64,000 bases of DNA from Cellulomonas fulva. GTDB taxonomy: Bacteria; Actinomycetota; Actinomycetes; Actinomycetales; Cellulomonadaceae. A program made the translations under genes and the position numbers. Shown in pieces: positions 22,079 to 44,591 of this stretch. The notes beneath the pieces are model-generated. The model saw only the letters and a list, made by a program, of their open reading frames with translations. It had not been told where the DNA came from and ran no database searches. Within the stretch, counting starts at the first letter, position 1. Each line of letters begins with the position of its first letter. The stretch is from NCBI RefSeq assembly GCF_018531375.1, contig NZ_JAHBOH010000001.1, positions 1,550,001 through 1,614,000 on the forward strand, given 5' to 3'.

Positions 22079-22096
22079 AAACCGGCTGGTCGGTAT
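22079..22096 (+). promoter_or_regulatory. TetR-type operator A (ACCG-n6-CGGT)
   Basis: AAACCGGCTGGTCGGTAT matches the palindrome found at three other sites in the window. TACGGT at 22071-22076 is a possible -10, which would put the transcript start inside the operator. It heads the SDR-TetR-oxidoreductase-SDR operon. Confidence 0.65.
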
Positions 22097-22221
22097 GGCG
22101 GTGCAGGACTGCAACGGGACTGCGGCGCTACGGCTGCGGTCGGGCAGGTCGCGGCGCCGGACGGTCACCGCGTCGCGCCGGACGGGCGGGACGGGACGGA
22201 CGTTCTCGACGAGGAGGCGGC

Positions 22222-22971
22222 GTGCGCTTCACGGGCAGGGTGGCCCTGGTGACCGGGGCGAGCCGGGGCATCGGCCTCGCCACCGTCGAGCGCCTGGTCC
22301 GCGAGGGGGCCTCCGTCACGATGACCGGCCGGCACGCGGAGACGCTGGACGAGGCGGAGGCGCGGCTGGGGCCGGACCGGGTGCTGGCGGTCGCGGGCAA
22401 GGCGGACGACGCCGAGCACCGCGCGGCCGCGGTGCGTGCGACCGTCGAGCGGTTCGGTGGGCTCGACCACCTGGTGAGCAACGTGGGGATCAACCCGGTG
22501 CACGGCCCGCTGCTGCGCACGGAGCCGGGCGCGGCGGCCAAGATCCTGCAGGTCAACCTGCTCGCAGCGCTCGACTGGGTCCGCGAGTGCGTCGACGCCG
22601 GCCTGGGGGAGCGGGACGGCGCCTCCGTGGTGTGCACCGCGTCGGTCGCCGGCCTCGCGGCCAGCCCCGGCATCGGGATGTACGGCGTCTCGAAGGCCGC
22701 GCTGCTCAACCTGGTCCAGCAGCTCGCGGTCGAGCTCGCGCCGCGGGTCCGGGTCAACGCGGTCGCCCCGGGCATCGTGCGCACGCGCCTGGCGACCGCG
22801 CTCGTCGCGGGCCGGGAGGAGGAGGCGCTCGCCGCCTACCCCCTGGGTCGCCTGGGCGAGCCGGCGGACGTCGCGGGCCCGATCGCCTTCCTGCTCTCGT
22901 CGGACGCCTCCTGGGTGACGGGACACGCGCTCGTCGTCGACGGTGGCGCGTCCGTGCGGCCGGTGGGGTGA
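22222..22971 (+). CDS. short-chain dehydrogenase/reductase
   Basis: A 249-residue classical SDR. The cofactor motif is TGASRGIG (about residues 12-19), followed by SNVGIN in place of NNAG, a catalytic Ser in CTASVAG, and YGVSK as the Tyr-Lys pair. The C-terminal SDASWVTGHALVVDGGASV is standard. The GTG at 22222 follows GAGGAGG. It probably oxidises a 3-hydroxyacyl-CoA or alcohol intermediate. It is first in an operon with the TetR gene. Confidence 0.9.
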   Translation: MRFTGRVALVTGASRGIGLATVERLVREGASVTMTGRHAETLDEAEARLGPDRVLAVAGKADDAEHRAAAVRATVERFGGLDHLVSNVGINPVHGPLLRTEPGAAAKILQVNLLAALDWVRECVDAGLGERDGASVVCTASVAGLAASPGIGMYGVSKAALLNLVQQLAVELAPRVRVNAVAPGIVRTRLATALVAGREEEALAAYPLGRLGEPADVAGPIAFLLSSDASWVTGHALVVDGGASVRPVG

Positions 22972-22982
22972 AGGATGGGCGC

Positions 22983-23609
22983 ATGAGGCAGACGAGTGTC
23001 GTCGAGGACGTCATGCAGGCCGCGCTGGAGCTGTTCGCCGCCCAGGGCTACGCCAACACCTCGGTGCAGCAGGTCGTGGAGTCGGCGGGCGTGACCAAGG
23101 GTGCGCTCTACCACTACTTCCAGTCGAAGGACGACCTGCTCTTCACGATCTACGAGCGGATGCTCACGGTCCAGACCGACCGCATGAACGCGATCATCGC
23201 GCGGGGCGGACCGGTCGAGGAGACGCTGCGCGCGGTGTGCCTCGACGTGGTCGAGACGTCGGTGGACTTCCTGCTCGAGGGCACCGTGTTCTTCCGCAGC
23301 CAGCACATGCTCACGGCACCGCGCCAGCAGGAGGTCACGCGGCGACGGCGCGCGTACCACGACACGTTCGCGGGGCTCCTGGAGCGGGGCCAGCAGGAGG
23401 GGGTCTACCGCACGGACATCCCGCGCAGCGTGATGGTCGCGCACTTCTTCTCCGACCTGCACTACCTGTCCTACTGGTTCCGGCCCACCGGGGCCGAGGG
23501 CAAGACCGAGCTCGCCGAGCAGCTCACGGACCTGTTCCTGGTGTCCGTGTCCGCCCGGGCGACGCAGCCCGCGGCGCCACCCGGCGCCGCGGTCCACGCG
23601 CAGGGGTAG
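22983..23609 (+). CDS. TetR-family regulator, candidate controller of the ACCG-n6-CGGT sites
   Basis: A 208-residue TetR protein. The HTH is ALELFAAQGYANTSVQQVVE, then SAGVTKGALYHYFQSKDDLL (about residues 13-55), closely like fatty-acid/acyl-CoA responsive repressors. It lies 11 bp after the SDR gene, in an operon headed by operator A. That makes it the best candidate to bind all four palindromes (22079, 25449, 38091, 44574). The ligand is unknown; acyl-CoA is inferred from context. Confidence 0.9.
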   Translation: MRQTSVVEDVMQAALELFAAQGYANTSVQQVVESAGVTKGALYHYFQSKDDLLFTIYERMLTVQTDRMNAIIARGGPVEETLRAVCLDVVETSVDFLLEGTVFFRSQHMLTAPRQQEVTRRRRAYHDTFAGLLERGQQEGVYRTDIPRSVMVAHFFSDLHYLSYWFRPTGAEGKTELAEQLTDLFLVSVSARATQPAAPPGAAVHAQG

Positions 23610-23624
23610 TCGAGGGGTGGGGCC

Positions 23625-24599
23625 GTGCAGGCATGGCAGGTGACGTCGCTGGGGGAGCCCGACGAGGCGCTGCGGCTGGTCGAGGTCGACCGGCCGGTGC
23701 CGGGACCGGGAGAGGTCCGGGTCGCCGTGCGGGCCGTGGGGATCAACTTCGCGGACGTCCTGCTGTGCCGGGGGGAGTACCAGGTCCGCCCGGCGTTGCC
23801 CTTCTCCCCGGGGATCGAGCTGTGCGGCGTCGTCGAGCAGGTCGGTCCGGACGTGACGCGCGTGAGCGTCGGTCAGAGGGTGGTCGCGTCCCTGATCGGC
23901 GCGCTGGCGCAGGAGGTCGTCGTGCCGCAGTCCGCGGTGCACGCGGCGCCCGACGAGCTCAGCGACGCCGAGGCGTCGGTGCTGACCGTGTCCTTCCACA
24001 CCGCGTGGTTCGCGCTGCACCGGCGGGCGCAGCTCCGGGCGGGCGAGACCGTCGTGGTGCACGCGGCCGCCGGCGGGGTCGGGCTCGCGGCGGTGCAGCT
24101 CGCGGCCGCCGCCGGTGCCCGCGTCGTGGCGGTGGTCGGCGGCGCCGCGAAGGGCGACGCGGCGCGACGAGCCGGCGCGCACGTCGTCGTCGACCGGGGC
24201 ACCGAGGACCTGGCCGGGGCGCTCCTCGCGGCCACCGACGGCCGCGGCGCGGACGTCGTCGTCGACCCGGTGGGCGGCGACGCCTACGACGCGTCGACGC
24301 GCGCGGTGGCGCTCGACGGCCGGATCGTGCTGGTCGGGTTCGCCGGCGGCCGCGTGCAGGAGGTGCGGCCCGGCCACGTGCTGGTCAAGAACTACAGCGT
24401 GCTGGGGCTGCACTGGGCGCTGTACCTGCAGCGCCGCCCGGACCTGGTGGACCAGGCGCACGACGAGCTGCTGCGCCTGGTCGCGGGCGGGCTGCGACCG
24501 GTCGTGGCGGACGTGGTGCCCTGGGAGCGGGCGCCGGAGGCGCTCACGCGCCTGGCGGCGGGCCGGACCGTGGGCCGGCTCGCGGTCGGTCTCGCATGA
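23625..24599 (+). CDS. zinc-independent quinone oxidoreductase-like MDR protein
   Basis: A 324-residue medium-chain dehydrogenase of the quinone oxidoreductase type. It has a GroES-like N-domain with GINFADVLLCRGEYQ, and the NADPH-binding AAAGGVGLAAVQLAAAAGA near residue 150. The Cys/His zinc ligands of alcohol dehydrogenases are absent. Such proteins reduce quinones or enoyl/enone groups. It sits between the TetR and SDR genes and overlaps the latter by 4 bp. Confidence 0.88.
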   Translation: MQAWQVTSLGEPDEALRLVEVDRPVPGPGEVRVAVRAVGINFADVLLCRGEYQVRPALPFSPGIELCGVVEQVGPDVTRVSVGQRVVASLIGALAQEVVVPQSAVHAAPDELSDAEASVLTVSFHTAWFALHRRAQLRAGETVVVHAAAGGVGLAAVQLAAAAGARVVAVVGGAAKGDAARRAGAHVVVDRGTEDLAGALLAATDGRGADVVVDPVGGDAYDASTRAVALDGRIVLVGFAGGRVQEVRPGHVLVKNYSVLGLHWALYLQRRPDLVDQAHDELLRLVAGGLRPVVADVVPWERAPEALTRLAAGRTVGRLAVGLA

Positions 24600-25390
24600 C
24601 CGCGGGTTCGCTCGTCGGGCGCGTCGCGCTGGTGAGCGGCGGTGCCCGCGGCCTCGGGGCCGCGTACGTGCGCGCGCTGCACGCGGCGGGTGCGTCCGTG
24701 GTCGTCGGCGACGTGCGGGACGACGAGGGTGCGGCCCTGGCCGCCGAGCTCTCGGGCGGTCCGGTCGGCTCGCACGGCTCACACGGCTCACACGGCTCGC
24801 ACGGCGCGCTCGGGACGGTGCGGTTCGTGCACCTGGACGTGACCGACGAGGGCGACTGGGCGGCCGCCGTCGACGCGGCCGTCGCGCTCGGCGGGCTGCA
24901 CGCGCTCGTGAACAACGCGGGCATCGCGAACGCGGGCCGGATCGAGCGCTACGGCCGCGACCAGTGGGACGCGGTGATCGCCGTGAACCTCACGGGCACG
25001 TACCTGGGCGTGCGCGCCGCGGTCGGCGCCATGCGCGCCGGCGGGGGCGGCTCGATCGTCAACGTCTCCTCGGTCGAGGGCATGCGGGGCGATGCGGCGC
25101 TGCACGGGTACGTCGCCTCCAAGTTCGGGGTCCGGGGGCTGACGAAGTCGCTCGCCGTCGAGCTGGGGCGGGACGGGATCCGGGTGAACTCCGTGCACCC
25201 CGGGTTCGTGCAGACGCCCATGACGGCGGGCCTCGACGAGTCGCGGCAGCGGATCCCGCTCGGTCGGGTGGCCGTGCCGGCCGACGTCGTCGGGGCGGTC
25301 ATGTTCCTGGTCGGCGACGCCTCGGCGTACGTCACCGGCACCGAGCTCGTGGTCGACGGCGGGATGATCGCCGGCGTACCGCACGCCTGA
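24596..25390 (+). CDS. short-chain dehydrogenase/reductase with a GSH-repeat loop
   Basis: A 264-residue SDR: SGGARGLG (about residues 14-21), NNAGIAN, NVSSVEG and YVASK. The ending LVGDASAYVTGTELVVDGGM is usual, and the sequence resembles 3-alpha/20-beta hydroxysteroid dehydrogenases. The loop before LDVTDE carries GSHGSHGSHGSHG, coded by a 9-bp tandem repeat (about 24774-24803), which is unusual. Last gene of the operon. Confidence 0.9.
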   Translation: MTAGSLVGRVALVSGGARGLGAAYVRALHAAGASVVVGDVRDDEGAALAAELSGGPVGSHGSHGSHGSHGALGTVRFVHLDVTDEGDWAAAVDAAVALGGLHALVNNAGIANAGRIERYGRDQWDAVIAVNLTGTYLGVRAAVGAMRAGGGGSIVNVSSVEGMRGDAALHGYVASKFGVRGLTKSLAVELGRDGIRVNSVHPGFVQTPMTAGLDESRQRIPLGRVAVPADVVGAVMFLVGDASAYVTGTELVVDGGMIAGVPHA

Positions 25391-25448
25391 CCACGACGGT
25401 CGGCGGGTCACAGGAAGGACACGATTGGATGCCTGTTCCCTCCGGCCC

Positions 25449-25478
25449 ATACCGTCCGGTCGGTTTCTGTCGTACGCT
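25449..25478 (+). promoter_or_regulatory. TetR-type operator B and promoter of the ABC importer operon
   Basis: ATACCGTCCGGTCGGTTT (25449-25466) precedes a TACGCT -10 (25473-25478). The operator thus covers the -35/spacer region of the importer promoter. Confidence 0.7.
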
Positions 25479-25509
25479 GCCTAGCACGTTCCGACACGAC
25501 GAGGTGCCG

Positions 25510-26259
25510 ATGACTGATGCGAGCGGTCCCCGAGACCGTCCGGACCCCCGCCCGGCGCGGCTGCGCGTGCGCGGCCTCGGGGTGCGGTTCGGCGGTCTCG
25601 ACGCCCTGACCGACGTGGGCCTCGAGGTCGCCGAGGGCGAGGTCGTCGGGCTCATCGGACCCAACGGCGCGGGCAAGACGACGCTCTTCAACGTCGTGTG
25701 CGGGCTCGTGCGGCCCACGGCCGGAGACGTCGAGATCGCGGGTGCCCCGGCGCCGCGCCGCCCGGACCGCCTGCTGGCCGCGGGCGTCGCCCGCACGCTG
25801 CAGGGCGTCGGCGTGCTGCCGAGCCTCACGGTGCTGGAGAACGTGCTCGTCGCGGTGCTGGACCGGACGGACCGCGACGAGCGGGCGGCGGGCGCGCTCG
25901 AGCGCGTCGGCCTGCCGCACGTCGCCGGGCGGACCGTGGGCGCGCTGCCGTACCCCGAGCAGAAGCGGGTCGCGCTCGCGCGCGCGCTCGCCACGGCCCC
26001 CCGCCTCCTGCTCCTCGACGAGCCGGCGGGCGGGCTCGGCCCGCAGGACGTCGCGGACCTGGGCGCCACCGTGCGCGAGGTCGCGGGGCAGGGGTGCGCG
26101 GTGCTGCTCGTCGAGCACCACGTCGACTTCGTCATGAGCGTCTGCGACCGCGTCGTGGTGCTCGACTTCGGCCGGGTGATCGCGGCGGGGCTGCCCGACG
26201 AGGTGCGGCGCGACCCCGCGGTCGAGCAGGCCTACCTGGGGATCGAGGTCGCGCGGTGA
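25510..26259 (+). CDS. livG: branched-chain-type ABC transporter ATP-binding protein (LivG)
   Basis: A 249-residue ATPase. Walker A is GPNGAGKTT (about residues 53-61), Walker B is LLLLDEPAGGL, and the H-loop is VEHHVD. The signature reads ALPYPEQKRVALARALA, a LivG-style variant of LSYGQQKR with Pro-Glu in place of Gly-Gln. The closing 'DPAVEQAYLG' is LivG-typical. It powers uptake with LivF through LivH/LivM. Substrates of this family range from branched amino acids to urea, amides and aromatic acids. Confidence 0.93.
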   Translation: MTDASGPRDRPDPRPARLRVRGLGVRFGGLDALTDVGLEVAEGEVVGLIGPNGAGKTTLFNVVCGLVRPTAGDVEIAGAPAPRRPDRLLAAGVARTLQGVGVLPSLTVLENVLVAVLDRTDRDERAAGALERVGLPHVAGRTVGALPYPEQKRVALARALATAPRLLLLDEPAGGLGPQDVADLGATVREVAGQGCAVLLVEHHVDFVMSVCDRVVVLDFGRVIAAGLPDEVRRDPAVEQAYLGIEVAR

Positions 26260-26966
26260 CCGCGCTCGACGTGCGCGGGCTCGTCGCCGGCTACGGCGGC
26301 GACCCGGTGCTGGACGGGGTGGACGTGCACGTCGGGGACGGCGAGGTCGTCGCGCTGCTCGGCGGCAACGGCGCGGGCAAGACGACGCTGCTGCGGGCCG
26401 TCACCGGGCTCCTGCCCGCGGCGGGCCGCGTGACCCTGGGCGACGAGGTGCTCACGGGCCTGCCCACCGAGGAGCGCGTGCGGCGCGGGCTCGCGCACGT
26501 CCCCGAGGGCCGGGGCGTCGTCACCGAGCTCACGGTGGACGAGAACCTGCGGCTGGGCGGCCTGTGGCGGCACGATGCGGCGGGCCTCACGGCGGCCGTG
26601 GCCGAGCAGTACGAGCGGTTCGAGCCGCTCGCGCGACGGCGGTCCGCGTTCGGCCACCAGCTCTCGGGCGGCGAGCGGCAGATGCTCGCGCTGGCCCGCG
26701 CCCTGGTGGCCCGCCCGCGGGTGCTGCTCCTCGACGAGCCGTCCCTGGGCCTGGCGCCCCAGGTGGTCCTCAGCATCCTGGGCACGCTGCGCACGCTGTG
26801 CGACGAGACCGGCCTGACCGTCCTGCTCGCGGAGCAGAACGCCGCCGGGGCGCTGTCCGTCGCCGACCGCGGGCTCGTGCTCCAGCTCGGTGCGGTCGTC
26901 GCGGACCGTCCCGCGCTCGTCCTCGCGGACGACACCACCCTCCGGCACGCCTACCTCGGGTTCTAG
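26256..26966 (+). CDS. livF: branched-chain-type ABC transporter ATP-binding protein (LivF)
   Basis: A 236-residue second ATPase. Walker A is GGNGAGKTT, the signature LSGGERQMLALARALV is intact, and Walker B is LLLDEPSLGLAP. 'AHVPEGRGVVTELTVDENL' is the LivF hallmark. GTG start overlapping livG by 4 bp. Confidence 0.94.
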   Translation: MTALDVRGLVAGYGGDPVLDGVDVHVGDGEVVALLGGNGAGKTTLLRAVTGLLPAAGRVTLGDEVLTGLPTEERVRRGLAHVPEGRGVVTELTVDENLRLGGLWRHDAAGLTAAVAEQYERFEPLARRRSAFGHQLSGGERQMLALARALVARPRVLLLDEPSLGLAPQVVLSILGTLRTLCDETGLTVLLAEQNAAGALSVADRGLVLQLGAVVADRPALVLADDTTLRHAYLGF

Positions 26967-26974
26967 GAGGGCTC

Positions 26975-27853
26975 ATGGACAGGTTCGTCTTCCTGGTCGG
27001 CACCGGCGTCGCCCGGGGCGTCGTGCTCGCGCTGTTCGCGCTCTCGCTGGTGCTCATCTGGCGCTCGACGCGCATCGTCAACTTCGCCGCGGGAGCCATG
27101 GCGGTCGTGTGCTGCTACGTCGCGCTCGCGGTCACCACCGTCACGGGCAGCTACTGGCTCGGCCTGCTCGCGGCGGTCGCGTGCGGCGCGCTGCTCGGCG
27201 TGGGCGTGGAGCGCGGCGTGATGCGGTTCGCCTCCGACCGGTCGCCGCTGTCCGGCGTGATCCTCGCGGTCGGCGTGGTGATGATCCTGCAGGCGCTCGT
27301 CGGGATCGTCGCCGGACCGCAGTACCGGCCCGTGCCGACGCCGTTCGACGACCGGGCCCTGCAGGTGGCGGGGGTCCCGCTGCTGTCGCCCTACGACCTG
27401 TTCGTCGTGGTCGTCGCGCTGGCGCTGATGGGCGGCCTGCGGCTGCTGTTCGGCCGCACCACGCTGGGGCTGCAGCTGCGCGCCGCGGCCTTCGCGCCCG
27501 AAGTCTCGCGGCTGCTCGGCGTGCGGGTGGCGCGCATGCGCACGCTCGGCTGGGTGCTCGCGTCCGCCGTCGGCGGGCTGGCGGCGCTGCTCGCGGTGCC
27601 GGGCGGGCTGGGCCTCAACCCGCACGCGACGGACGCACTGTTCGTCGGGGCGTTCGCCGTCGCCGTGATCGGCGGGCTGGACTCGCCCGCCGGGGCCGTG
27701 GTGGGCGGTCTGCTCGTCGGCGTGGTCCTGACGCTGGTCACCGGCTACCTCGGCGCGGGCGTCGCGCCCGTCGCGCTCCTGATCCTGCTCGTCGTGGTGC
27801 TGGTGGTCCGGCCGACGGGGCTGTTCGCGACCGTGGAGGCGAGGCGGGTATGA
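26975..27853 (+). CDS. livH: branched-chain-type ABC transporter permease (LivH)
   Basis: A 292-residue inner-membrane permease with about eight hydrophobic segments. The motif STRIVNFAAGAMAVVCCYVA near residue 32 is the LivH 'NFA.G......Y' signature. The AVIGGLDSPAGAVVGGLLVG stretch near residue 230 also fits. AGGAGG lies just before the ATG, and the gene overlaps livM by 4 bp. Confidence 0.93.
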   Translation: MDRFVFLVGTGVARGVVLALFALSLVLIWRSTRIVNFAAGAMAVVCCYVALAVTTVTGSYWLGLLAAVACGALLGVGVERGVMRFASDRSPLSGVILAVGVVMILQALVGIVAGPQYRPVPTPFDDRALQVAGVPLLSPYDLFVVVVALALMGGLRLLFGRTTLGLQLRAAAFAPEVSRLLGVRVARMRTLGWVLASAVGGLAALLAVPGGLGLNPHATDALFVGAFAVAVIGGLDSPAGAVVGGLLVGVVLTLVTGYLGAGVAPVALLILLVVVLVVRPTGLFATVEARRV

Positions 27854-28959
27854 CCAGCTCGACGACGACGCGGGACGCCGCCCCGGCCGGTGACGAGGTG
27901 CGCGGGGCACTCCCGCGGGCAGCGCGGCCGCGGGTGCGCCGGACGGTCGCCCGGGCGGTGCTCGTGGTGCTCCTGGTGGTCGCGGGGACCTTCCTGCTCG
28001 ACCCGTACCGCAACTACCTGCTCGCCCTCGTCGGGGCGTACCTGTGCGCCACGGCCGGCCTGGGGCTCCTGGTCGGCCGGTCCGGGCAGCTCTCGCTGGG
28101 GCACGCCGCGCTCATGGCCGCCGGCGGCTACGGCTACGCCCTGACCGCCGGTGCGGCCGCCGACCTGCCCGACGGGCTGCGGACCGTGCTCGGCCTGCTG
28201 GTCGCGGTGGTCGTCGCGGCCGTCGTCGGGCTGCTCGTCGGGCTCGCGGGCGCACGGCTGCACGGCCCGTACCTCGCGGGACTGACGCTCGCGCTGGTGA
28301 TGGCGCTGCCCGCGATCACGACGACGGTGCCCGGCCTCGGCGGCGACCGCGGGCTGACCGTGCCGTTCCAGCCGGTTCCGGACGCGCTCGACGCCGTGAT
28401 CGCGCTCGAGCAGTGGCAGGCGTGGGTGGTGGCCGTGGTCGCCGGTGTCGTCGTGACCGCGCTCGTGCTCGTCGACGCCGGGCGCACGGGGGTGCGCCAG
28501 CGCGCGGTCCGGGACGACGAGGTCGCGGCCGCGCTCGCGGGCGTGCCGGTCGGCCGCACCAAGGTGGTCGCGTTCGTGCTCTCCGCGGCCGCCGCGGGCG
28601 TCGGCGGCGCGCTGCTCTGCTTCGTCACGCAGAACGTCTCGCCCGGCGCGTTCACCGTCTCGCTGTCGCTCCTGCTCCTGGTCGGCGTCGTGGTGGGCGG
28701 CGTCGGTCGGCTCGCCGGCGCGGTGGTCGGCGCCGTCCTCGTCGTGGTGCTGCCCTGGCTCGTCTCGCTGCTCACCGAGGCGCTGCCGCTGGGCGCCGAG
28801 CTGGCCCGGCGCCTCGACGGCAACCTCGCGCTCCTGCTGTTCGGCGTGCTGCTCGTCGTGCTCACCGTGCTCGCGCCGGAGGGCGTGGCGGGCGCGGTCT
28901 CGCGTCGTCGCGCGGCACGTCGTCGTGCGGCGCGTCGTCCCGGACGGGAGGCCCCTTGA
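27850..28959 (+). CDS. livM: branched-chain-type ABC transporter permease (LivM)
   Basis: A 369-residue permease with roughly ten transmembrane segments. The motif LLVGRSGQLSLGHAALMAAG near residue 75 is the LivM signature. RDDEVAAALAGVPVGRTKVV is the cytoplasmic loop that contacts the ATPases. The N-terminal 30 residues and C-terminal 20 are Arg-rich extensions. Confidence 0.93.
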   Translation: MTSSTTTRDAAPAGDEVRGALPRAARPRVRRTVARAVLVVLLVVAGTFLLDPYRNYLLALVGAYLCATAGLGLLVGRSGQLSLGHAALMAAGGYGYALTAGAAADLPDGLRTVLGLLVAVVVAAVVGLLVGLAGARLHGPYLAGLTLALVMALPAITTTVPGLGGDRGLTVPFQPVPDALDAVIALEQWQAWVVAVVAGVVVTALVLVDAGRTGVRQRAVRDDEVAAALAGVPVGRTKVVAFVLSAAAAGVGGALLCFVTQNVSPGAFTVSLSLLLLVGVVVGGVGRLAGAVVGAVLVVVLPWLVSLLTEALPLGAELARRLDGNLALLLFGVLLVVLTVLAPEGVAGAVSRRRAARRRAARRPGREAP

Positions 28960-29069
28960 CCGATCGAGGACCTGCGCACCACCTCCGACGCCGCACGTCA
29001 TCCCGGCGGCCCCTCGCTCAGCCCTTCTCACAGCCCGCTCCACCCCTGCTACCCGAAGGACGGACGACG

Positions 29070-31850: not shown

Positions 31851-31909
31851 GGGTGTTCCTCCGTGACGTCGCTGTGACGGGGTCCTGACGACTCGGCGCG
31901 AGTGCGCCG

Positions 31910-31923
31910 TGTTAGCGCTCACA
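31910..31923. promoter_or_regulatory. LacI-type operator 1
   Basis: TGTTAGCGCTCACA is a near-perfect palindrome centred on GC-GC, like LacI-family operators. It is 60 bp upstream of the minus-strand GH43 start. Confidence 0.7.
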
Positions 31924-32042
31924 ATCCCACCCGTGCGGTTCGCGCGGCACTACCGAAACGTTTTTCCTCGGCGCCGGGGAGTAATCGGTTCGGACCGTTG
32001 ACGCGCCCGCGCGGGCGGTGGTCGTCTTCGCAGACCTGCGGC

Positions 32043-32058
32043 ATGTGTGCGCTCACAT
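32043..32058. promoter_or_regulatory. LacI-type operator 2
   Basis: ATGTGTGCGCTCACAT (7 of 8 pairs symmetric) lies 20 bp upstream of the plus-strand GH43 start. Its right half matches operator 1. An AAACGTTT palindrome at 31956-31963, between them, may be a further site. Confidence 0.7.
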
Positions 32059-32078
32059 CGATGGAGAGGACCACCCAC

Positions 32079-34113: not shown

Positions 34114-34115
34114 TC

Positions 34116-36968: not shown

Positions 36969-38030
36969 TCAGCGCACGCCGGTGCGTGCCACGTGGGCGA
37001 GGCCGTCCCGCGCGAGCGGGACGACGAGGTCGCCGATGGTGTCGAAGCCCGTCCCGACGGTCTCGCCCGCCCGGAACCGGAAGTGCACGCCCTCGAGGAT
37101 CACGGCGAGCTTGTACGCGGCGAACGCGCGGTACCAGTGCAGGTCGGGGATCCGGACGCCCCGGTGCTCGGCGTACGCGTCGAGCAGCTCCGCGAACGGC
37201 GGGTACCCCGCGGCCGGGTCGACCGCCGAGGCGCCCGCTCCCGGCGCGACCTCGCGGATCGCCCAGTACATGCCGAGCATGCCGACGTCGACCAGCGGGT
37301 CGCCCAGCGTCGACATCTCCCAGTCGAGGATCGCCGAGATGCGCGGCCCCGCGGGCTCTCGCACGACGAGGGCGTTGTCGAGCCGGTAGTCGCCGTGCAC
37401 CAGCGCCGGGCGGTCGGAACCGGGCACGTCGACGCGGAGGCGCTCCTGCAGCTCGTCGAGCTCGGGGAGTGCCCGCGAGCGCGAGCCGTCGTACTGCTTG
37501 CCCCACCGCACGAGCTGGCGGGCCAGGAACCCGTCCGGCCGGCCGAGGTCCGCCAGTCCCACCCGCGCCGGGTCGAGCGTGTGCAGCTCCGCGAGCAGGC
37601 GTGCGAGCTCGCGGCTCACGTCGCGCAGGCCGTCCGGCGTGAACGCGGCGTTCTGCTCGGGGCTCGCCAGCGCCTGGCCGGGCACCCGCGACATCAGGTA
37701 GAAGGGCGTGCCCGTGCCGGCCGTGCCGTCGGCGTCGTCGTGCAGCGCCAGGGCGCGGGGGACCGGCACCGGCGTGGGGCCGAGCGCGCTGATGACCCGG
37801 TGCTCGCGCGCCATGTCGTGCGCCGTCGCCTGGACGTGGCCGAGCGGGGGCCGCCGCAGCACCAGCGGCACCGCCGCTCCGTCGACCCGGTAGGTGAGGT
37901 TGGACCGGCCCCCGGTGAGCAGGCTCGCGGTGAGCGTGCCGCTCCCGGCGAGCCCGGGGTGCGTCCGCCGCAGCCAGGCCTGCAGCCGCGCGACGTCGAG
38001 GCCGGGCGGGGTGCCCGGAGCATCGGTCAT
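36969..38030 (-). CDS. APH-like phosphotransferase (ACAD10/11 N-domain / LvaA-like)
   Basis: A 353-residue kinase of the aminoglycoside-phosphotransferase fold. LTGGRSNLTYRV is the nucleotide loop, LVHGDYRLDNALV the catalytic Brenner motif, and ISAILDWEMSTLGDPLVDVG the metal-binding DxD/E region. Family members in ACAD11 and in the Pseudomonas levulinate operon phosphorylate 4-hydroxyacyl-CoA. An antibiotic-resistance role is unlikely given the operon. Confidence 0.92.
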   Translation of the reverse strand: MTDAPGTPPGLDVARLQAWLRRTHPGLAGSGTLTASLLTGGRSNLTYRVDGAAVPLVLRRPPLGHVQATAHDMAREHRVISALGPTPVPVPRALALHDDADGTAGTGTPFYLMSRVPGQALASPEQNAAFTPDGLRDVSRELARLLAELHTLDPARVGLADLGRPDGFLARQLVRWGKQYDGSRSRALPELDELQERLRVDVPGSDRPALVHGDYRLDNALVVREPAGPRISAILDWEMSTLGDPLVDVGMLGMYWAIREVAPGAGASAVDPAAGYPPFAELLDAYAEHRGVRIPDLHWYRAFAAYKLAVILEGVHFRFRAGETVGTGFDTIGDLVVPLARDGLAHVARTGVR

Positions 38031-38090: not shown

Positions 38091-38108
38091 ATACCGCGCG
38101 GTCGGTAT
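38091..38108 (-). promoter_or_regulatory. TetR-type operator C
   Basis: ATACCGCGCGGTCGGTAT lies 60 bp upstream of the phosphotransferase start, and the flanking C and G extend the symmetry to CATACCG/CGGTATG. It is the most symmetric of the four sites. Confidence 0.75.
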
Positions 38109-38156: not shown

Positions 38157-38606
38157 TCAGGGGGTCACGACGAGCTCGCGCTCGATCGCGGCGCGCAACG
38201 GCTCCGGGATCGGCGCGGGCCGTCGCGAGACGGCGTCGACGAAGACGTGCACGAACCGGCCGGTGGCCGCGAGCGCGGGCTCCGGGCCGGGCTGCCCGGG
38301 CTCTGCCGGCTCCGGTACCGCGCTGATGCCCAGCTCCCAGGTCACGCTCGTCCGGCCGACGCGGGCGGCGCGCAGGCCGATGCGCAGCGACTGCGGGAAC
38401 GAGACCGACGCCCGGTACTCGCACGACGACGACGCGCACACGGCGATGTGCTCGCCCCCGCGCGGGTCCAGCCCGGCGCGCACCAGCCAGCGGTTGATGG
38501 CGGTGTCCATGGCCTCGTAGTAGACGGCGTTGTTCACGTGGCCGTACTGGTCGTTGTCGTTCCACCGCGTCGGGACGACGGCGTGGTGGCCGTAGCGCTC
38601 CGTCAC
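38157..38606 (-). CDS. acyl-CoA thioesterase (4-HBT hotdog family)
   Basis: A 149-residue single-hotdog thioesterase. TRWNDNDQYGHVNNAVYYEAMD (residues 14-35) includes the catalytic Asp region of the 4-hydroxybenzoyl-CoA thioesterase/YbgC group. It hydrolyses acyl-CoA, perhaps to relieve CoA trapping. GTG start overlapping the TetR stop by 4 bp. Confidence 0.9.
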   Translation of the reverse strand: MTERYGHHAVVPTRWNDNDQYGHVNNAVYYEAMDTAINRWLVRAGLDPRGGEHIAVCASSSCEYRASVSFPQSLRIGLRAARVGRTSVTWELGISAVPEPAEPGQPGPEPALAATGRFVHVFVDAVSRRPAPIPEPLRAAIERELVVTP

Positions 38607-39328
38607 GCCGCACCTCCCGGTGCGTCGGGACGCAGGACCAGCTCGAACGCCGCGCGGGCGCGCTCGACGGACGGTGCGTCGCCGGTGATGAGGTCGGCGT
38701 ACGTGAAGGACTCCGAGATGCGGACCAGCAGGTAGGCCAGGTCGTGCGGCGGGACGCGGCCGAAGGGCCGCTCGCCGAGCTCGTCGCGGACCAGCTTCTC
38801 CGCGACCGCGACGTAGCGCCGCTGGATCTCGCTCTCGTTCGTCGTGAGCAGGCGCAGCGCGCGGGCCGGCTCGCGGCGCAGGAAGTCGCGGAAGTAAGGC
38901 GCGGCGATCAGGTCGCGGACGAACGCGGTGAGGACCGCGACCACGCGGTCGGCGCCCCGGCGGTCCCGTGCGGTGGCGTCCGCCTGCGAGAGCGTGGGGA
39001 CGGCGAGGGACCACAGCACCTCGGAGAGCAGGCTGTCGCGGTTGCCGACCCACCGGAACAGCGAGGTGCGGTCGATGCCGATGCGCAGCGCGAGCCGCCC
39101 CATGTCGATGCGCTCCCCGGCGATGAACGTCTCCCGCGCCAGACGGAACGCGTGGACCGCGTCCGGGTGCGCACCGTCCTCGAGCCGCTGCGAGAGCCAG
39201 GAGGGCGCGGCGGCCGTGCCCGCGCGGGCGAGGTCCGTGCCGTGCGTGCCGGGCGCGTGGGGCTCGTCGGGCGGGGCTCCCGTGCGGGCCTCCGGGGCGG
39301 GTCCCGCGCTCGTCGTCGAGGTCGGCAT
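38603..39328 (-). CDS. TetR-family regulator (QsdR-like)
   Basis: A 241-residue regulator with a low-complexity N-terminal 35 residues. The HTH is RIDMGRLALRIGIDRTSLFR followed by WVGNRDSLL. The end, ISESFTYADLITGDAPSVER, resembles the ligand domain of QsdR-type TetR proteins. TAGAGT (39336-39341, minus) is a -10 placed for a nearly leaderless mRNA. It is divergent from the ACAD-thiolase operon, with an inverted repeat (39362-39385) between them. Confidence 0.9.
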   Translation of the reverse strand: MPTSTTSAGPAPEARTGAPPDEPHAPGTHGTDLARAGTAAAPSWLSQRLEDGAHPDAVHAFRLARETFIAGERIDMGRLALRIGIDRTSLFRWVGNRDSLLSEVLWSLAVPTLSQADATARDRRGADRVVAVLTAFVRDLIAAPYFRDFLRREPARALRLLTTNESEIQRRYVAVAEKLVRDELGERPFGRVPPHDLAYLLVRISESFTYADLITGDAPSVERARAAFELVLRPDAPGGAA

Positions 39329-39361: not shown

Positions 39362-39385
39362 TGCAACATTCCTGAAAATGATGCA
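39362..39385. promoter_or_regulatory. candidate operator of the QsdR-like TetR
   Basis: TGCAACATT (39362-39370) and AATGATGCA (39377-39385) are inverted arms (8 of 9 paired) around 6 bp. It sits in an AT-richer patch between divergent genes. Confidence 0.65.
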
Positions 39386-39443
39386 CGCTGTGGGACGGGA
39401 CCGGCGACGCACGCCGGCGATCGACGACGATCGGAGACGAGCG

Positions 39444-40646
39444 ATGACCGACACCCTCCTGGCGCCCGCGGTGCCCGAGACCCTGCACGCCGACTTCTAC
39501 GGCTTCCAGGCGGACCTCACGCCCGTCGAGCAGGACGCGGCGCTGCGGCTGCGCGAGCTGCTCGAGCGGGAGGTCCGCCCCATCGCGAACGACTACTGGG
39601 CGCGGGCCGAGTTCCCGCACCAGGTCGTGCAGCCGCTCGCGCGGTTCGGCGCGTTCGGCGCGTTCATCCCCGAGGTGGCGCGGTTCGAGAACAGCGCGGT
39701 CTACCGCGGCTGGGCGGGCATGGAGCTCGGCCGCGTCGACGCGTCGACGTGCACCTTCGTCGGCGTGCAGTCCGGACTCGCGATGGGCGCGATCCACGTC
39801 GGCGGATCCCGGGAGCAGCGGGAGGAGTGGCTGCCCGCGATGGCCGACGGCACGGTGATGGGCGCGTTCGGGCTGACCGAGCCGCTGTCCGGCTCCGACA
39901 CCGCGCGCGGCCTGCGCACCACCGCGCGGCGCGACGGCGACCGGTGGGTGCTCAACGGCGCCAAGCGCTGGATCGGGAACGCCACGTTCTCCGACATCAC
40001 GGTGGTCTGGGCGCGGGACGTCGCGGACCAGCAGGTCAAGGGGTTCCTCGTGCGGCGGGGGACGCCCGGGTTCACCACGTCCAAGATCGAGGGCAAGCAG
40101 GCGCTGCGGATCGTGCAGAACGCCGACATCACGCTCGAGGACGTCGTCGTCCCCGAGTCCGACCGCCTGCCCGAGGTCCACTCGTTCCGCGAGGTCGCGA
40201 TCGTCCTGCGGCTCACCCGGGCCGAGGTCGCGTGGCAGGCGATCGGCGTCGCGGTGGGCGCGTACGAGGCCGCGGTGCGCTACGCCGGCGAGCGCGAGCA
40301 GTTCGGCAAGACGATCGCGCACTACCAGATCGTCCAGGACCGGCTCGCCTCCTGCCTCGGCAACATCACGGCGTGCATCGCGATGTGCATGCAGGTCTCG
40401 CGCATGCAGGACGAGGGCCGGCAGCGCGACGAGCACGCGGCGCTCGCCAAGAGCTTCGTCACGACGAGGATGCGCGAGGTCGTCGCGTGGTGCCGCGAGC
40501 TGCTGGGCGGCAACGGCATCACGCTCGAGCACGGCGTCGCCCGGTACTTCGCGGACGCCGAGGCCGTGTACTCGTTCGAGGGCACGCGCGACATGAACCA
40601 GCTCATCGTCGGGCGGTCGATCACGGGCGTCTCCGCGTTCGTCTGA
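39444..40646 (+). CDS. acyl-CoA dehydrogenase (glutaryl-CoA dehydrogenase-like)
   Basis: A 400-residue ACAD. FGLTEPLSGSDTARGLRTTA binds FAD, and YSFEGTRDMNQLIVGRSITG at the end matches glutaryl-CoA dehydrogenase, with the catalytic Glu in FEGT. The Arg that binds the glutaryl carboxylate cannot be placed with certainty, so decarboxylating activity is not proven. It is followed by a thiolase 46 bp downstream. Confidence 0.92.
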   Translation: MTDTLLAPAVPETLHADFYGFQADLTPVEQDAALRLRELLEREVRPIANDYWARAEFPHQVVQPLARFGAFGAFIPEVARFENSAVYRGWAGMELGRVDASTCTFVGVQSGLAMGAIHVGGSREQREEWLPAMADGTVMGAFGLTEPLSGSDTARGLRTTARRDGDRWVLNGAKRWIGNATFSDITVVWARDVADQQVKGFLVRRGTPGFTTSKIEGKQALRIVQNADITLEDVVVPESDRLPEVHSFREVAIVLRLTRAEVAWQAIGVAVGAYEAAVRYAGEREQFGKTIAHYQIVQDRLASCLGNITACIAMCMQVSRMQDEGRQRDEHAALAKSFVTTRMREVVAWCRELLGGNGITLEHGVARYFADAEAVYSFEGTRDMNQLIVGRSITGVSAFV

Positions 40647-40692
40647 CCGCCCGCCCCAGCCCGGAACCCGCACCCACGACAGGAGGACGACC

Positions 40693-41916
40693 GTGCCCGA
40701 GGCCTACATCGTCGCCGCCGCCCGCTCACCGATCGGCCGCGCGTTCAAGGGGTCGCTGCGCGAGCTGCGTGCCGACGACCTCGCCGCGACCATGGTGCGC
40801 GCGGCGCTCGACCAGGTCCCCGACCTCGACCCGACGCGCATCGACGACCTGATGCTCGGCTGCGGCATGCCCGGCGGCGAGCAGGGGATGAACATGGCGC
40901 GCGTCGTCGCGGTCCTCGCCGGGCTCGACGGCGTGCCGGGTACCACGGTGAACCGGTACTGCTCGTCGAGCCTGCAGACCACGCGCATGGCGCTGCACGC
41001 GATCAAGGCCGGTGAGGGCGACGTGTTCGTCTCCGCGGGCGTCGAGCTGGTCAGCAGGTACGCGCGGGGGCACGCCGACTTCATCCCCGGCGAGGACCTG
41101 ACCAACCCGCGGTTCGCGCACGCGACCGCGCGCACCTCGACCGCCGCCGAGGGCGGCACCACCTGGCGCGACCCGCGCGAGGACGGCGAGCTGCCGGACG
41201 TGTACGTCGCGATGGGGCAGACCGCGGAGAACGTCGCCCAGCTCACCGGGACCTCGCGGCGCGAGCAGGACGAGTACGCGGCGCTCTCGCAGCAGCGCGC
41301 GCAGGAGGCGGTCGCGAGCGGCTTCTGGTCCCGCGACATCACCCCCGTCACGCTCCCCGACGGCACGGTGGTCGCGGCCGACGACGGGCCGCGGGCGGGC
41401 GTCACGGTCGACACGCTGTCCGCGCTCGAGCCGGTGTTCCGGCCGGACGGCACCGTGACGGCGGGCAACTGCTGCCCGCTCAACGACGGCGCCGCGGCGC
41501 TCGTCGTCGTGAGCGACCGGGTGGTCGAGGACCTGGGCCTGACGCCCCTGGCCCGCATCGTCTCGACCGGCGTCAGCGGGCTCTCGCCCGAGATCATGGG
41601 GCTCGGCCCGGTCGAGGCGAGCCGGCGTGCTCTCGCGCTCGCGGGGCTGACGATCGACGACGTCGACCTGGTCGAGATCAACGAGGCGTTCGCCGCGCAG
41701 GTGCTGCCGTCCGCCAAGGAGATCGGGGTGGACCTCGAGCGGCTCAACGTCCACGGCGGCGCGATCGCGGTGGGCCACCCGTTCGGCATGACGGGTGCGC
41801 GCATCACGACGACGTTGATCCACGGGCTCCAGGAGCGCGACGGCCGCTACGGCCTCGAGACCATGTGCGTCGGCGGCGGCCAGGGCATGGCGATGGTCCT
41901 GGACCGCGCCGTCTGA
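40693..41916 (+). CDS. acetyl-CoA acyltransferase (thiolase)
   Basis: A 407-residue thiolase. Nucleophile Cys in NRYCSSSLQT (about C92), His in EINEAFAAQ and GHPFGMTGAR, second Cys in MCVGGGQGMAMV. It cleaves 3-ketoacyl-CoA to acetyl-CoA. The GTG at 40693 follows AGGAGG. It pairs with the upstream ACAD as an operon. Confidence 0.95.
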   Translation: MPEAYIVAAARSPIGRAFKGSLRELRADDLAATMVRAALDQVPDLDPTRIDDLMLGCGMPGGEQGMNMARVVAVLAGLDGVPGTTVNRYCSSSLQTTRMALHAIKAGEGDVFVSAGVELVSRYARGHADFIPGEDLTNPRFAHATARTSTAAEGGTTWRDPREDGELPDVYVAMGQTAENVAQLTGTSRREQDEYAALSQQRAQEAVASGFWSRDITPVTLPDGTVVAADDGPRAGVTVDTLSALEPVFRPDGTVTAGNCCPLNDGAAALVVVSDRVVEDLGLTPLARIVSTGVSGLSPEIMGLGPVEASRRALALAGLTIDDVDLVEINEAFAAQVLPSAKEIGVDLERLNVHGGAIAVGHPFGMTGARITTTLIHGLQERDGRYGLETMCVGGGQGMAMVLDRAV

Positions 41917-41930
41917 CCCCGTCCGAAGCC

Positions 41931-41990
41931 CGCGACCCCGTGATCTCTCCGGCTCTGACGCTCCAGAGCCGGAGAGATCACGGGGTCGCG
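41931..41990. terminator. bidirectional terminator with a 26-bp perfect stem
   Basis: The arms at 41931-41956 and 41965-41990 are exact inverse complements with an 8-nt loop; the stem core reads GATCTCTCCGGCTCT. It lies between the convergent thiolase and MaoC genes. The length is unusual for a bacterial terminator. Confidence 0.85.
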
Positions 41991-42022
41991 GTGGGTTGTG
42001 CGGGTGGGACTAGCGGGTGGGA

Positions 42023-42520
42023 CTAGCGGGCGGGACCAGCGGGTGGGGGTGGGGCGGGGACGACGAGCGTGATGGTGCGGGCGACGACGGCCGGCTTGTC
42101 GGCGCCCTCCAGGTCCACGACCACGTCGGAGAGCACCCGGGTGCCCGCGGGCGTCGGCTCGACGCCGACCACCGTCGTCGTCGCCCGCACGCGCGACCCC
42201 GCGCGGACCGGGCTGACGAACCGGACCTTGTCGAGCCCGTAGTTGACCACCATCGCGGCGCCCTCGACCGCCAGCAGCCCGTCGGTGAGGGCGGGGACCA
42301 GCGAGAGCGTCAGGAACCCGTGCGCGACGGTCGCGCCGAAGGGTCCCGCCGCCGCGCGCACCGGGTCGACGTGGATCCACTGGTGGTCCGCCGTCGCGTC
42401 GGCGAACTGGTCGATCCGGTCCTGGGACACGGTGAACCAGTGCCCGGTCGCGCTGCGCCCGACGACGTCGGGCAGCGCGGCCACGGACGGCGCCGCGATC
42501 ACCTGCAGCGGCCCGTTCAC
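42023..42520 (-). CDS. MaoC-family enoyl-CoA hydratase
   Basis: A 165-residue single-hotdog (R)-specific hydratase. The motif FADATADHQWIHVDPVRAAA followed by GPFGATVAHGFLTLS has the catalytic Asp and His. It hydrates 2-enoyl-CoA. The C-terminal VPAPPPPAGPAR is coded in a GGGTGGGACTAGC-like repeat. The GTG start overlaps the SDR stop by 4 bp. Confidence 0.93.
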   Translation of the reverse strand: MNGPLQVIAAPSVAALPDVVGRSATGHWFTVSQDRIDQFADATADHQWIHVDPVRAAAGPFGATVAHGFLTLSLVPALTDGLLAVEGAAMVVNYGLDKVRFVSPVRAGSRVRATTTVVGVEPTPAGTRVLSDVVVDLEGADKPAVVARTITLVVPAPPPPAGPAR

Positions 42521-43314
42521 GAGCGCGGCCCGCCCGCGACGTAGAGCACCTGGCCGGAGACGAACGAGGCCTCGGGTGAGCAGAAGAACGCCACCGCGGC
42601 GGCGACGTCCTCCGGCCGTCCGGCGCGGCGCACCGGCGTCTGCTCCGCCGCGGCGGCGACGAAGTCCGCGAACGGCACCCCGATCCGCTCGGCCGTCGCG
42701 CGCGTCATCTCGGTCGCGACGAACCCGGGCGCGACCGCGTTCACGGTCACGCCGAACGGCCCCAGCTCGAGCGCGAGCGTCTTGGTGAGCCCCTGCATCC
42801 CGGCCTTGGCCGCCGCGTAGTTCGCCTGGCCGCGGTTGCCGAGCGCGGAGGTGCTCGACAGGTTCACGACGCGCCCCCAGCGGGCCGCGGTCTGGTGCCG
42901 CTGCACCGCGCGGCTCATGAGGAACGCGCCGCGGAGGTGGACCCGGAGCACGGCGTCCCAGTCGTCGGCCGACATCCTGAACAGCAGGTCGTCCCGCAGG
43001 ATCCCGGCGTTGTTGACCAGGACCGTGGGCGGACCGAGCTCGGCGGCGACCCGCTCGACGGCGGCGCCGACCGCGGTCTCGTCGCCCACGTCGGCGCTGA
43101 CCGCGAGCGCGTCGCCGCCCGCGTCGGCGATCGCGTCGGCGGTCTGCTGGGCGTCGCTCAGGGACAGGTCCACGACGGCGACCCGGTGGCCGTCGGCCGC
43201 CAGCCGCATCGCGGTGGCGGCGCCGATCCCGCGGGCGCCCCCGGTGACGATCGCGGTCCGCACGTCGGGCGGGGTGGGCTCGGCGGGTGCTGCGGGCTGT
43301 GCTGGTGCGGTCAC
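42517..43314 (-). CDS. 3-oxoacyl-type SDR reductase/dehydrogenase
   Basis: A 265-residue SDR: TGGARGIG (about residues 24-31), NNAGILRDDLLFRM, NLSSTSALGNRGQANYAAAK with the Tyr-Lys pair, and GQVLYVAGG at the end. It resembles FabG or 3-hydroxyacyl-CoA dehydrogenase. It works with the overlapping MaoC gene as the hydratase/dehydrogenase pair of beta-oxidation. Confidence 0.92.
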   Translation of the reverse strand: MTAPAQPAAPAEPTPPDVRTAIVTGGARGIGAATAMRLAADGHRVAVVDLSLSDAQQTADAIADAGGDALAVSADVGDETAVGAAVERVAAELGPPTVLVNNAGILRDDLLFRMSADDWDAVLRVHLRGAFLMSRAVQRHQTAARWGRVVNLSSTSALGNRGQANYAAAKAGMQGLTKTLALELGPFGVTVNAVAPGFVATEMTRATAERIGVPFADFVAAAAEQTPVRRAGRPEDVAAAVAFFCSPEASFVSGQVLYVAGGPRS

Positions 43315-43422
43315 GGTGGCGTCCTCTCGTGGGTCCCGCTCGGGCGGATCGGCTCGGGCGGGTCGGTCGGTGGGTCCGGTGGTCGGAGCGGTCAGGTGGT
43401 CCGGCTCGTCGGACCGGGTCCG

Positions 43423-44535
43423 TCAGAAGGTGATGAGCTGGCGCAGCTCGTGCCCGGTGGCGAGCCGATCCATCGCGACGTCGAGCTCGTCGAGCCGGAT
43501 GCGCCCCGACACCAGCGCGTCGAGCGGCAGCCGGCCCTCTCGCCAGAGGTCGACGTACCGGGGGATGTCCCGTGCGGGCACGGCGGACCCCAGGTAGGAC
43601 CCGACGACCGTGCGCGCCTGGGCCGTCAGCGTCAGCGGGCTGACCTGCGCCCGGGCGTCGGGGGCGGGGAGGCCGACGGTGACGGTGGTGCCGCCCGGGG
43701 CGGTGAGGGCGAGCGCCGTCTCGAACGCCCGCGCGCTGCCGGCGGCCTCCACGACGACGCCGGCGAGCAGGCCGTCGTCGAGCGCGGTCTGCGAGGCGAG
43801 CGCTCCGTGGGCTCCGAGCGCGAGAGCGGTCGCGAGCTTGTCGGGGACCGCGTCGACCCCCACCACCTCGTGCCCGCTCGCCAGCGCGACGAGCAGCGCC
43901 GCCATGCCGACGCCGCCGAGCCCGACGACGACGACGCGCTCGCGCGGCGCGGGGCGCCCCGCGTTGAGCACGGCGCCGCCGCCGGTCAGTACCGCGCAGC
44001 CCAGGAGCGCCGCGGCCTCGGCCGGCACCTCGCGCGAGACCGGGACCACCGAGGTGCGGCTGACCACGGCGTGCGTCGCGAACGCCGAGACGCCGAGGTG
44101 GTGGTGCACGTCCTCGTCGCCCGCCGCGCCCGCGCGGTGCAGGCGCCGGTGGCCGCCGACGAGGGTGCCCGCCGCGTTCGCCGCGCTCCCCACCCGGCAC
44201 GGCAGCCGGCCGTCCGTCGCGCACTCGGGACACGCGCCGCAGCGCGGCAGGAACGTCATGACGACGCGCTCGTCGGGCCGCACGTCCACCACGCCCGGAC
44301 CGACGCGCTCGACCACGCCCGCCGCCTCGTGCCCCAGCAGCATCGGGGTGGGCCGCTCGCGGCTGCCGTCCACGACGGAGAGGTCCGAGTGGCACACCCC
44401 GGCGGCCTCGATCCGGACCAGGAGCTCGCCCGGCCCCGGACCGTCGAGCTCGAGCGGTCCCACGGTGAACGGCCGCGACGTGGCGAACGGCGCGGCCGAG
44501 CCGGTCCGCTCCAGGACGGCACCCAGGATCTCCAC
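43423..44535 (-). CDS. zinc-dependent alcohol dehydrogenase (class III-like MDR)
   Basis: A 370-residue MDR enzyme. Catalytic zinc ligands: Cys in GVCHSD, His-Glu in LLGHEAAG, Cys in LLGCAVLTGGG. The structural zinc quartet is CGACPECATDGRLPC (C-x2-C-x2-C-x7-C). The nucleotide motif is GLGGVGMAALL. It resembles NDMA-type or formaldehyde/aryl alcohol dehydrogenases. First gene of the ADH-SDR-MaoC operon behind operator D. Confidence 0.92.
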   Translation of the reverse strand: MEILGAVLERTGSAAPFATSRPFTVGPLELDGPGPGELLVRIEAAGVCHSDLSVVDGSRERPTPMLLGHEAAGVVERVGPGVVDVRPDERVVMTFLPRCGACPECATDGRLPCRVGSAANAAGTLVGGHRRLHRAGAAGDEDVHHHLGVSAFATHAVVSRTSVVPVSREVPAEAAALLGCAVLTGGGAVLNAGRPAPRERVVVVGLGGVGMAALLVALASGHEVVGVDAVPDKLATALALGAHGALASQTALDDGLLAGVVVEAAGSARAFETALALTAPGGTTVTVGLPAPDARAQVSPLTLTAQARTVVGSYLGSAVPARDIPRYVDLWREGRLPLDALVSGRIRLDELDVAMDRLATGHELRQLITF

Positions 44536-44573
44536 GTCGCTCCCTCCGGCGGACCTCGTCGTCCGTCCACACC

Positions 44574-44591
44574 ATACCGACCGGGCGGTAT
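44574..44591 (-). promoter_or_regulatory. TetR-type operator D
   Basis: ATACCGACCGGGCGGTAT, inside the larger palindrome CCATACCG..CGGTATGG (44572-44593), 39 bp upstream of the ADH start. Confidence 0.75.

Follow-up and report, generated by a model that had tools for sequence, protein, structure and literature searches.

Which regulator, if any, ties together the catabolic operons of a 22.5-kb cluster in Cellulomonas fulva, and what substrate do these operons serve? The window analyzed here is a stretch of 64,000 nucleotides (assembly GCF_018531375.1, contig NZ_JAHBOH010000001.1, positions 1,550,001 to 1,614,000), and all coordinates below are positions within it. A preliminary description made from the letters alone had noted the same 18-bp palindrome before four transcription units: a short-chain dehydrogenase/reductase (SDR)-TetR operon, a Liv-type importer, a phosphotransferase-acyl-CoA dehydrogenase (ACAD)-ligase operon and an alcohol dehydrogenase (ADH)-SDR-MaoC operon. 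It had named the TetR-family protein encoded at 22983 (TetR1) as their controller. Our analysis makes it likely that TetR1, a PfmR-like regulator, represses these four operons and that they serve the use of 4-hydroxy acids via a kinase-ACAD route. TetR-controlled catabolic regulons are a known kind; the present one is unusual in what TetR1 controls.

Four unique putative operators at core promoters

All four 18-mers are present where they had been reported (Table 1). They are imperfect copies of ATACCGACCGGTCGGTAT rather than one identical palindrome, the strongest part being ACCG.....CGGT. When the C. fulva genome (3,744,005 bases in three contigs) was scanned with ATACCGNNNGGNCGGTAT at zero to one mismatch, seven rows on both strands were obtained, all of them at these four places. 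About 0.65 rows would be expected by chance from independent bases at the genomic guanine-plus-cytosine (GC) content, and the reversed pattern had no match in this genome at the same stringency. Two mismatches add three places, with about 16 rows expected from base composition. For four random genomic sites, the probability of all falling within 22.5 kb is about 1e-6.

Scored with a weight matrix built from 67 sites (see below; the window's own four are included), the four operators reach 25.8-29.0 bits, or 25.6-28.9 bits in leave-one-genome-out scoring, and the next-best match in the window reaches 9.1 bits. Another 15 candidates were available in the genome, three from the ATACCGNNNGGNCGGTAT scan and 12 from a scan with the core ACCGNCYRGNCGGT; 11 were scored, the remaining four (all ACCGNCYRGNCGGT matches) being without a locus. 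A fifth target was rejected among the 11 scored candidates, the best of which, at 12.8 bits, falls within a coding frame whose GC content at third codon positions is near 0.98. The bare core was likewise rejected as a sufficient site, being common both in the window (ACCGNNNGGTCGGT with one mismatch, 16 rows versus 5.7 expected) and in the genome (ACCGNCYRGNCGGT, 15 places versus 4 for its control). The short core alone is unspecific, and the A/T flanks are needed for operator specificity. That commonness is what speaks for the palindromes being chance products of a GC-rich genome, an explanation with a negligible claim given that the full-length sites are unique, clustered and kept in position across genera, a conservation that refutes chance.

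Read towards the gene, each operator has a -10-like TAnnnT hexamer beside or over it (Table 1), and operator 2 itself also holds TACCGT. Placement is similar in relatives, with GGTATGnT found in 16 sites before the APH-family kinase gene (APH), a TA..GT consensus after the sites before LivG, and TAcggT-like hexamers preceding many sites before SDR1. Repression would be the natural reading, since sites at these positions should hinder polymerase.

The sites are conserved at the same promoters

We compared 150 genomes of the family (designated by G numbers), drawn evenly from a larger group, using E cut-offs of <= 1e-20 for TetR1 and <= 1e-100 for ACAD1. Stretches of 20-60 kb around TetR1 were fetched from 20 of the 30 other genomes that have it, and the analyzed set comprises the window and these 20 relatives; totals below 21 reflect fetched stretches in which the gene was not detected. 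Promoters were scored with a leave-one-genome-out matrix, and sites of at least 20.9 bits were counted. A site precedes SDR1 in 21/21 genomes, LivG in 19/19, APH in 16/21 and ADH in 11/14, giving 67 of 75 promoters; the four operons singled out in C. fulva thus carry it in relatives as well. All eight misses fall in one genus (APH in G006, G097, G105, G117 and G128; ADH in G006, G105 and G128). In that genus, APH follows LivK (SDR2 in G117) and ADH follows ACAD2-thiolase in the same orientation, an arrangement that looks like operon fusion.

For 15 other cluster genes, 289 starts were examined, and a site of at least 12 bits lies near 14 of them. Four are starts of SDR3 where ADH was not found, the site there serving SDR3-MaoC, and five belong to a second TetR gene of the cluster (TetR2) where it shares the SDR1 intergenic region. 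The remaining five rows trace to three sites of lower score (13.6-18.0 bits), located at ACAD2 in G002, G014 and G037. In the genus with the apparently fused operons, three genomes show a 10.5-bit site ahead of ACAD2. When each promoter was Markov-shuffled 20 times, 6 of 364 promoters yielded a score of 12 bits.

More distant relatives were sought by scanning a collection of species genomes with an alignment of 16 TetR1 sequences, and the best 80 loci of at least 581 relatives were analyzed. Close loci among these 80, some of which repeat genomes already fetched, come from Cellulosimicrobium, Cellulomonas, Leifsonia, Microbacterium, Isoptericola, Promicromonospora, Myceligenerans and Nesterenkonia; those at 43-49% identity come from Streptomyces, Nocardiopsis, Lentzea, Nocardioides and allies. 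Of the 55 distant loci (L132-L186), 40 contain APH, and in 35 of these 40, mostly from Streptomyces, a site of at least 19.8 bits lies upstream of it, beginning 18-96 bases ahead of the start codon; many of these loci are near-identical, and the 35 are not 35 independent events. All five misses are Nocardiopsis loci, in four of which the site precedes an SDR1-like gene that lies upstream of APH-ACAD1 in the same orientation. Sites were present at 1 of 42 ACAD1 starts and in 41 of 1100 random 280-base windows from the distant loci. As judged from sequence, the conserved core is TetR1, its putative operator and the kinase-ACAD pair. In a plasmid collection, only four distant TetRs were found.

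Within the genus of C. fulva, TetR1 and ACAD1 occur in only 2 of 17 genomes, and only these two have two or more site places. This patchiness suggests horizontal gain or repeated loss of the module.

TetR1 as the probable controller

TetR1 was detected in 31 of the 150 genomes and ACAD1 in 32, namely the same 31 plus G044. At least one site with zero to one mismatch is present in 29 of the 31 genomes with TetR1 versus 23 of the 119 without it. Two or more places are present in at least 25 of the 31 versus two certain, and at most seven, of the 119, the range being due to five genomes with one match per strand that are known in part (G040, G048, G062, G063 and G092). P values from such counts are too favorable, related genomes not being independent; the Fisher test took the value of two. 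G044 keeps ADH-SDR3-MaoC-thioesterase-APH-ACAD1-ligase, and in it we found no TetR1 match, no zero-to-one-mismatch site genome-wide and no site of at least 8 bits in the 20 kb fetched. Because ACAD1 is present in all 31 TetR1 genomes, sites persist where TetR2 is missing, and sites vanish in G044, TetR1 is very probably the controller of the four-promoter regulon. The earlier assignment of this role to the TetR at 22983 is strongly supported by the conserved site positions, the co-occurrence, these natural losses and the closeness of the sites to -10-like elements.

We consider it very improbable that some other regulator, above all TetR2, binds the four sites. TetR2 does lie inside the cluster and accompanies TetR1 in 28 of 31 genomes. 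Against this, G014, G037 and G054, in which TetR2 was not found, each still have two or three sites on the forward strand, whereas G031, G092 and G123, which have TetR2 without TetR1, show no site of at least 8 bits in the 20 kb around TetR2 (G031 and G092 have a zero-to-one-mismatch site elsewhere in the genome). No TetR2 match was obtained from the 55 distant loci either, and TetR2 accompanies a palindrome of its own. On the strength of that palindrome and of the sites kept in its absence, TetR2 was rejected as controller of the four sites.

The second palindrome, TGCAACAT-N8-ATGATGCA, is the sole match to its sequence in the C. fulva genome at up to two mismatches. A palindrome of the form TGCAWCA-N10-TGWTGCA occurs in 16 of 18 fetched regions holding TetR2, the window included (it is missing in G117 and G128), and in none of three regions without TetR2, one of which is from G091, where TetR2 is on another contig. 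TetR2 lies elsewhere in the cluster in G105 and G006, which have one copy of the palindrome near it and another before ACAD2. ACAD2-thiolase has its own palindrome and probably its own TetR, and TetR2 with the 24-base palindrome looks like a separate lower-pathway switch; the preliminary description had overlooked this second TetR and its palindrome. In G014 and G037 (L082-L083 and L101-L102), a TetR1-like palindrome of 18 bits, AATCCGACCGGTCGGTCT, is present at the promoter of ACAD2, and TetR1 has possibly taken over the ACAD2 operon in these genomes.

It also seems improbable, if less remotely so, that TetR1 binds but activates, or that a further TetR of the PfmR/PaaR class encoded in the genome also uses the sites. 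The single sites in genomes that have no TetR1 favor such a reading and indicate that other regulators use similar operators. It is opposed by the location of the sites, which overlap or adjoin -10-like elements, as is usual for repression. Near-perfect single sites such as GTACCGACCGGACGGTAT were seen in G071, G102 and G115 (L044, L042 and L043), all without TetR1; single sites in such genomes may be used by another TetR whose operator is similar. In G068, one of the two certain genomes with several places and no TetR1, the identical 18-mer ATACCGCCAGGCCGGGAT recurs on contigs C47, C58, C63 and C94, perhaps as part of a repeated or mobile element.

TetR1 matches the TetR_N domain PF00440 with 67.8 bits (cut-off 24) and PF17932 with 74.4 bits (cut-off 26.4), and its helix-turn-helix, TKGA.YHYF.SKDDLL, is invariant save for two columns in 16 orthologues. 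Compared with solved structures, its AlphaFold model (mean pLDDT 88.5) comes nearest in fold to Thermus PfmR (3vpr, TMq 0.77-0.80); AibR, KstR2 and FadR are among the first 50 fold matches.

A predicted split ACAD10/11-type kinase-dehydrogenase pair

ACAD1 aligns to the ACAD domain of ACAD11 with 421-427 bits, compared with 151 bits at best for ordinary ACADs; 4hr3, an unstudied bacterial-type entry with HAMR instead of HCMR, gives 435 bits. Its RLGPGRIHHCMR and LADGPDEVH stretches correspond to R626, R631, H634, R637 and D753 in the numbering of mouse ACAD11, which is one above the chain number. Of the residues looked for as marks of the ACAD10/11 pathway, ACAD1 has the HCMR motif, the upstream arginine and the catalytic aspartate (R626, H634, R637 and D753). 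Changes at R626, H634 or R637 are described as halting the ACAD step, with accumulation of the phospho-intermediate (PMC12440821). APH aligns to the ACAD11 kinase domain with 145-148 bits and keeps D220, N225 and R176; across APH and ACAD1, all eight placeable ACAD11 residues are retained. Such kinases are described as phosphorylating 4-hydroxyacyl-CoA, from which the ACAD then removes the phosphate to give 2-enoyl-CoA, the bacterial cases being LvaA/LvaC of Pseudomonas putida and a Burkholderia pair (PMC12440821, PMC11342911). The phosphotransferase-ACAD pair is therefore predicted to be a split, LvaA/LvaC-like ACAD10/11, that is, a 4-hydroxyacyl-CoA kinase and a phosphate-eliminating ACAD, which makes a 4-hydroxy or 4-oxo acid the probable substrate. 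The C. fulva genome encodes one ACAD of the ACAD1 type, the sole other match being ACAD2 at 26% identity. MaoC, the FabG-like SDR3 and the thiolase fit the subsequent steps; for SDR1, SDR2, ADH and the quinone-oxidoreductase-like dehydrogenase (QOR), our guess is 4-oxo reduction or feed-in from an alcohol or lactone.

The proposal of uptake, activation and beta-oxidation-like steps for one substrate stands as far as the regulon goes and can be refined: the route appears to be neither generic nor one for phenylacetate, and the kinase-ACAD pair points to 4-hydroxyacyl-CoA. Phenylacetate was rejected as an unlikely substrate because PF05138 (PaaA/PaaC) has no match in the C. fulva genome (the control was positive in 4 of 14 genomes). 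No paa oxygenase is among the scanned cluster genes either, so the control of paa genes that marks a PaaR regulon was not found. A regulon that is real but serves some other hydroxylated acyl-CoA, derived from a terpenoid, an aromatic side chain or another Liv-imported acid, is unlikely, yet deserves serious thought. The importer and the ligase do not fix the acid, as LivK is only weakly near binding proteins of the branched-chain-amino-acid type (best 58 bits) and the ligase is above the cut-off for no specific family. The HCMR motif and upstream arginine of ACAD1, both tied to 4-phosphoacyl-CoA handling, argue against such alternatives.

Organization of the cluster

The unit described as an SDR-TetR operon does contain SDR1 and TetR1 but is longer, extending over QOR and a second SDR (22222-25390). 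Two GH43 enzymes with ricin-type lectin domains, in convergent/divergent orientation, lie between importer and ligase (30477-34061). Neither was matched in the regions fetched from the 20 relatives, for which reason the pair is probably an insertion foreign to the regulon.

Table 1. Operators and genes of the TetR1 cluster in the C. fulva window.
Feature	Position	Strand	Remarks
Operator 1	22079..22096	+	before SDR1-TetR1-QOR-SDR2; -10-like TACGGT ends two bases upstream
SDR1, short-chain dehydrogenase/reductase	22222..22971	+	PF13561
TetR1, proposed repressor of the regulon	22983..23609	+	PF00440, PF17932
QOR, quinone-oxidoreductase-like zinc-type dehydrogenase	23625..24599	+	PF00107/PF08240
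SDR2	24596..25390	+	PF13561
Operator 2	25449..25466	+	before Liv importer; -10-like TACGCT six bases downstream
LivGFHMK, branched-chain-amino-acid-type ABC importer	25510..30362	+	two ATPases, two permeases, one binding protein
Acyl-CoA ligase (AMP-binding)	34116..35726	-	PF00501/PF13193
ACAD1, ACAD10/11-type acyl-CoA dehydrogenase	35738..36955	-	carries RLGPGRIHHCMR and LADGPDEVH
APH-family kinase, ACAD11-kinase-domain-like	36969..38030	-	
Operator 3	38091..38108	-	before APH-ACAD1-ligase; end overlapped by -10-like TATGCT
4HBT thioesterase	38157..38606	-	PF13279; regulon palindrome not upstream here
TetR2, second regulator, probably of ACAD2-thiolase	38603..39328	-	PF18598
Second palindrome, TGCAACAT-N8-ATGATGCA	39362..39385	.	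24 bases, between TetR2 and ACAD2
ACAD2, acyl-CoA dehydrogenase of another type	39444..40646	+	
Thiolase	40693..41916	+	
MaoC-type hydratase	42023..42520	-	PF01575
SDR3, FabG-like dehydrogenase	42517..43314	-	
ADH, zinc-type alcohol dehydrogenase	43423..44535	-	
Operator 4	44574..44591	-	before ADH-SDR3-MaoC; end overlapped by -10-like TATGGT

A model for the regulon

In the scheme that we infer, from binding and repression to ligand, substrate and order of steps, TetR1 would act as a PfmR-like repressor, presumably a homodimer, on four ATACCG-N6-CGGTAT operators at core promoters. It would jointly hold down the genes for the Liv-type importer, ligase, kinase/ACAD pair, reductases, hydratase and dehydrogenases. 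The imported acid would be converted to its CoA thioester by the ligase, APH would phosphorylate the 4-hydroxyl of the acyl-CoA, and ACAD1 would eliminate the phosphate to yield a 2-enoyl-CoA, which MaoC would hydrate, SDR3 oxidize and the thiolase cleave. An acyl-CoA intermediate probably releases TetR1 from the DNA.

Several points tell against this model. The training sites of the matrix behind the 67 of 75 promoters had been chosen, in other genomes, as the best matches within those same promoters, and the relatives are not independent. Just 8 of the 55 distant loci have a site at the TetR1 start, 23 of the 119 genomes without TetR1 carry at least one zero-to-one-mismatch site, and 126 bases separate operator 1 from the predicted SDR1 start. 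On the enzyme side, two other APH-type entries fit APH better (192 and 175 bits) than the ACAD11 kinase domain does, and R86, a kinase residue named in the literature, could not be placed in chain numbering.

A broader reading is offered tentatively. TetR1 might be a new actinobacterial sensor that detects 4-hydroxyacyl-CoA (or 4-phosphoacyl-CoA), with a repressor-operator-kinase-ACAD core recurring in Streptomyces, Microbacterium, Cellulomonas and others. In Cellulomonas, Cellulosimicrobium and Isoptericola the core might have expanded into a two-tier circuit, where TetR1 would govern uptake and 4-hydroxyl removal and TetR2, with its own palindrome, ACAD2-thiolase, with traceable rewiring where TetR2 was lost. 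The phosphorylated-CoA route for 4-hydroxy acids was assigned to mammalian ACAD10/11 only in 2024-2025. The actinobacterial enzyme pair described here is accompanied by a candidate repressor and mapped operators, by an importer and by enzymes for later steps, and the core of this system is also present in Streptomyces. For 4-hydroxy acids it could serve as a gene set ready for use and as a candidate biosensor, the inducer question being directly testable, and the natural cases of loss, relocation and operon fusion are material for studying how regulons are wired.

Comparison with known systems

Among the matches listed in a search of open-licence PMC full text, no paper describing a TetR regulator of such genes was recognized. 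The resemblance to sites of phenylacetate and fatty-acid TetR repressors that had been suggested for the motif was borne out by comparison: the operator is close to the PfmR site as published, TACCGACCGNTNGGTN (PMC7022988), and to the operator given for Burkholderia PaaR, ACCGACCGGTCGGT (PMC2770484); the site reported for Thermus PaaR, AACnAACGTTnGTT, differs (PMC6651687). PfmR (TTHB023), a TetR-family protein of Thermus thermophilus, is alike in fold and operator, but regulates other genes in Thermus and is only 24-25% identical to TetR1, so this is a likeness and not orthology. PaaR (BCAL0210), the TetR repressor of phenylacetate genes in Burkholderia cenocepacia, is likened to TetR1 by its similar operator core and differs in its phenylacetate genes, C. 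fulva having no PaaA/PaaC family match. By its published description, the lva operon of P. putida (LvaA, LvaC and LvaE; PMC12440821, PMC11342911) likewise brings together a kinase, an ACAD and an acyl-CoA ligase for a 4-hydroxyacyl-CoA route; what sets the C. fulva cluster apart is its TetR and the operators at four promoters, along with a Liv-type importer and additional reductases. In mammals, the ACAD10/ACAD11 proteins offer a counterpart domain by domain, APH aligning to the kinase domain of ACAD11 and ACAD1 to its ACAD domain, but ACAD11 is one polypeptide, whereas kinase and ACAD here are two.

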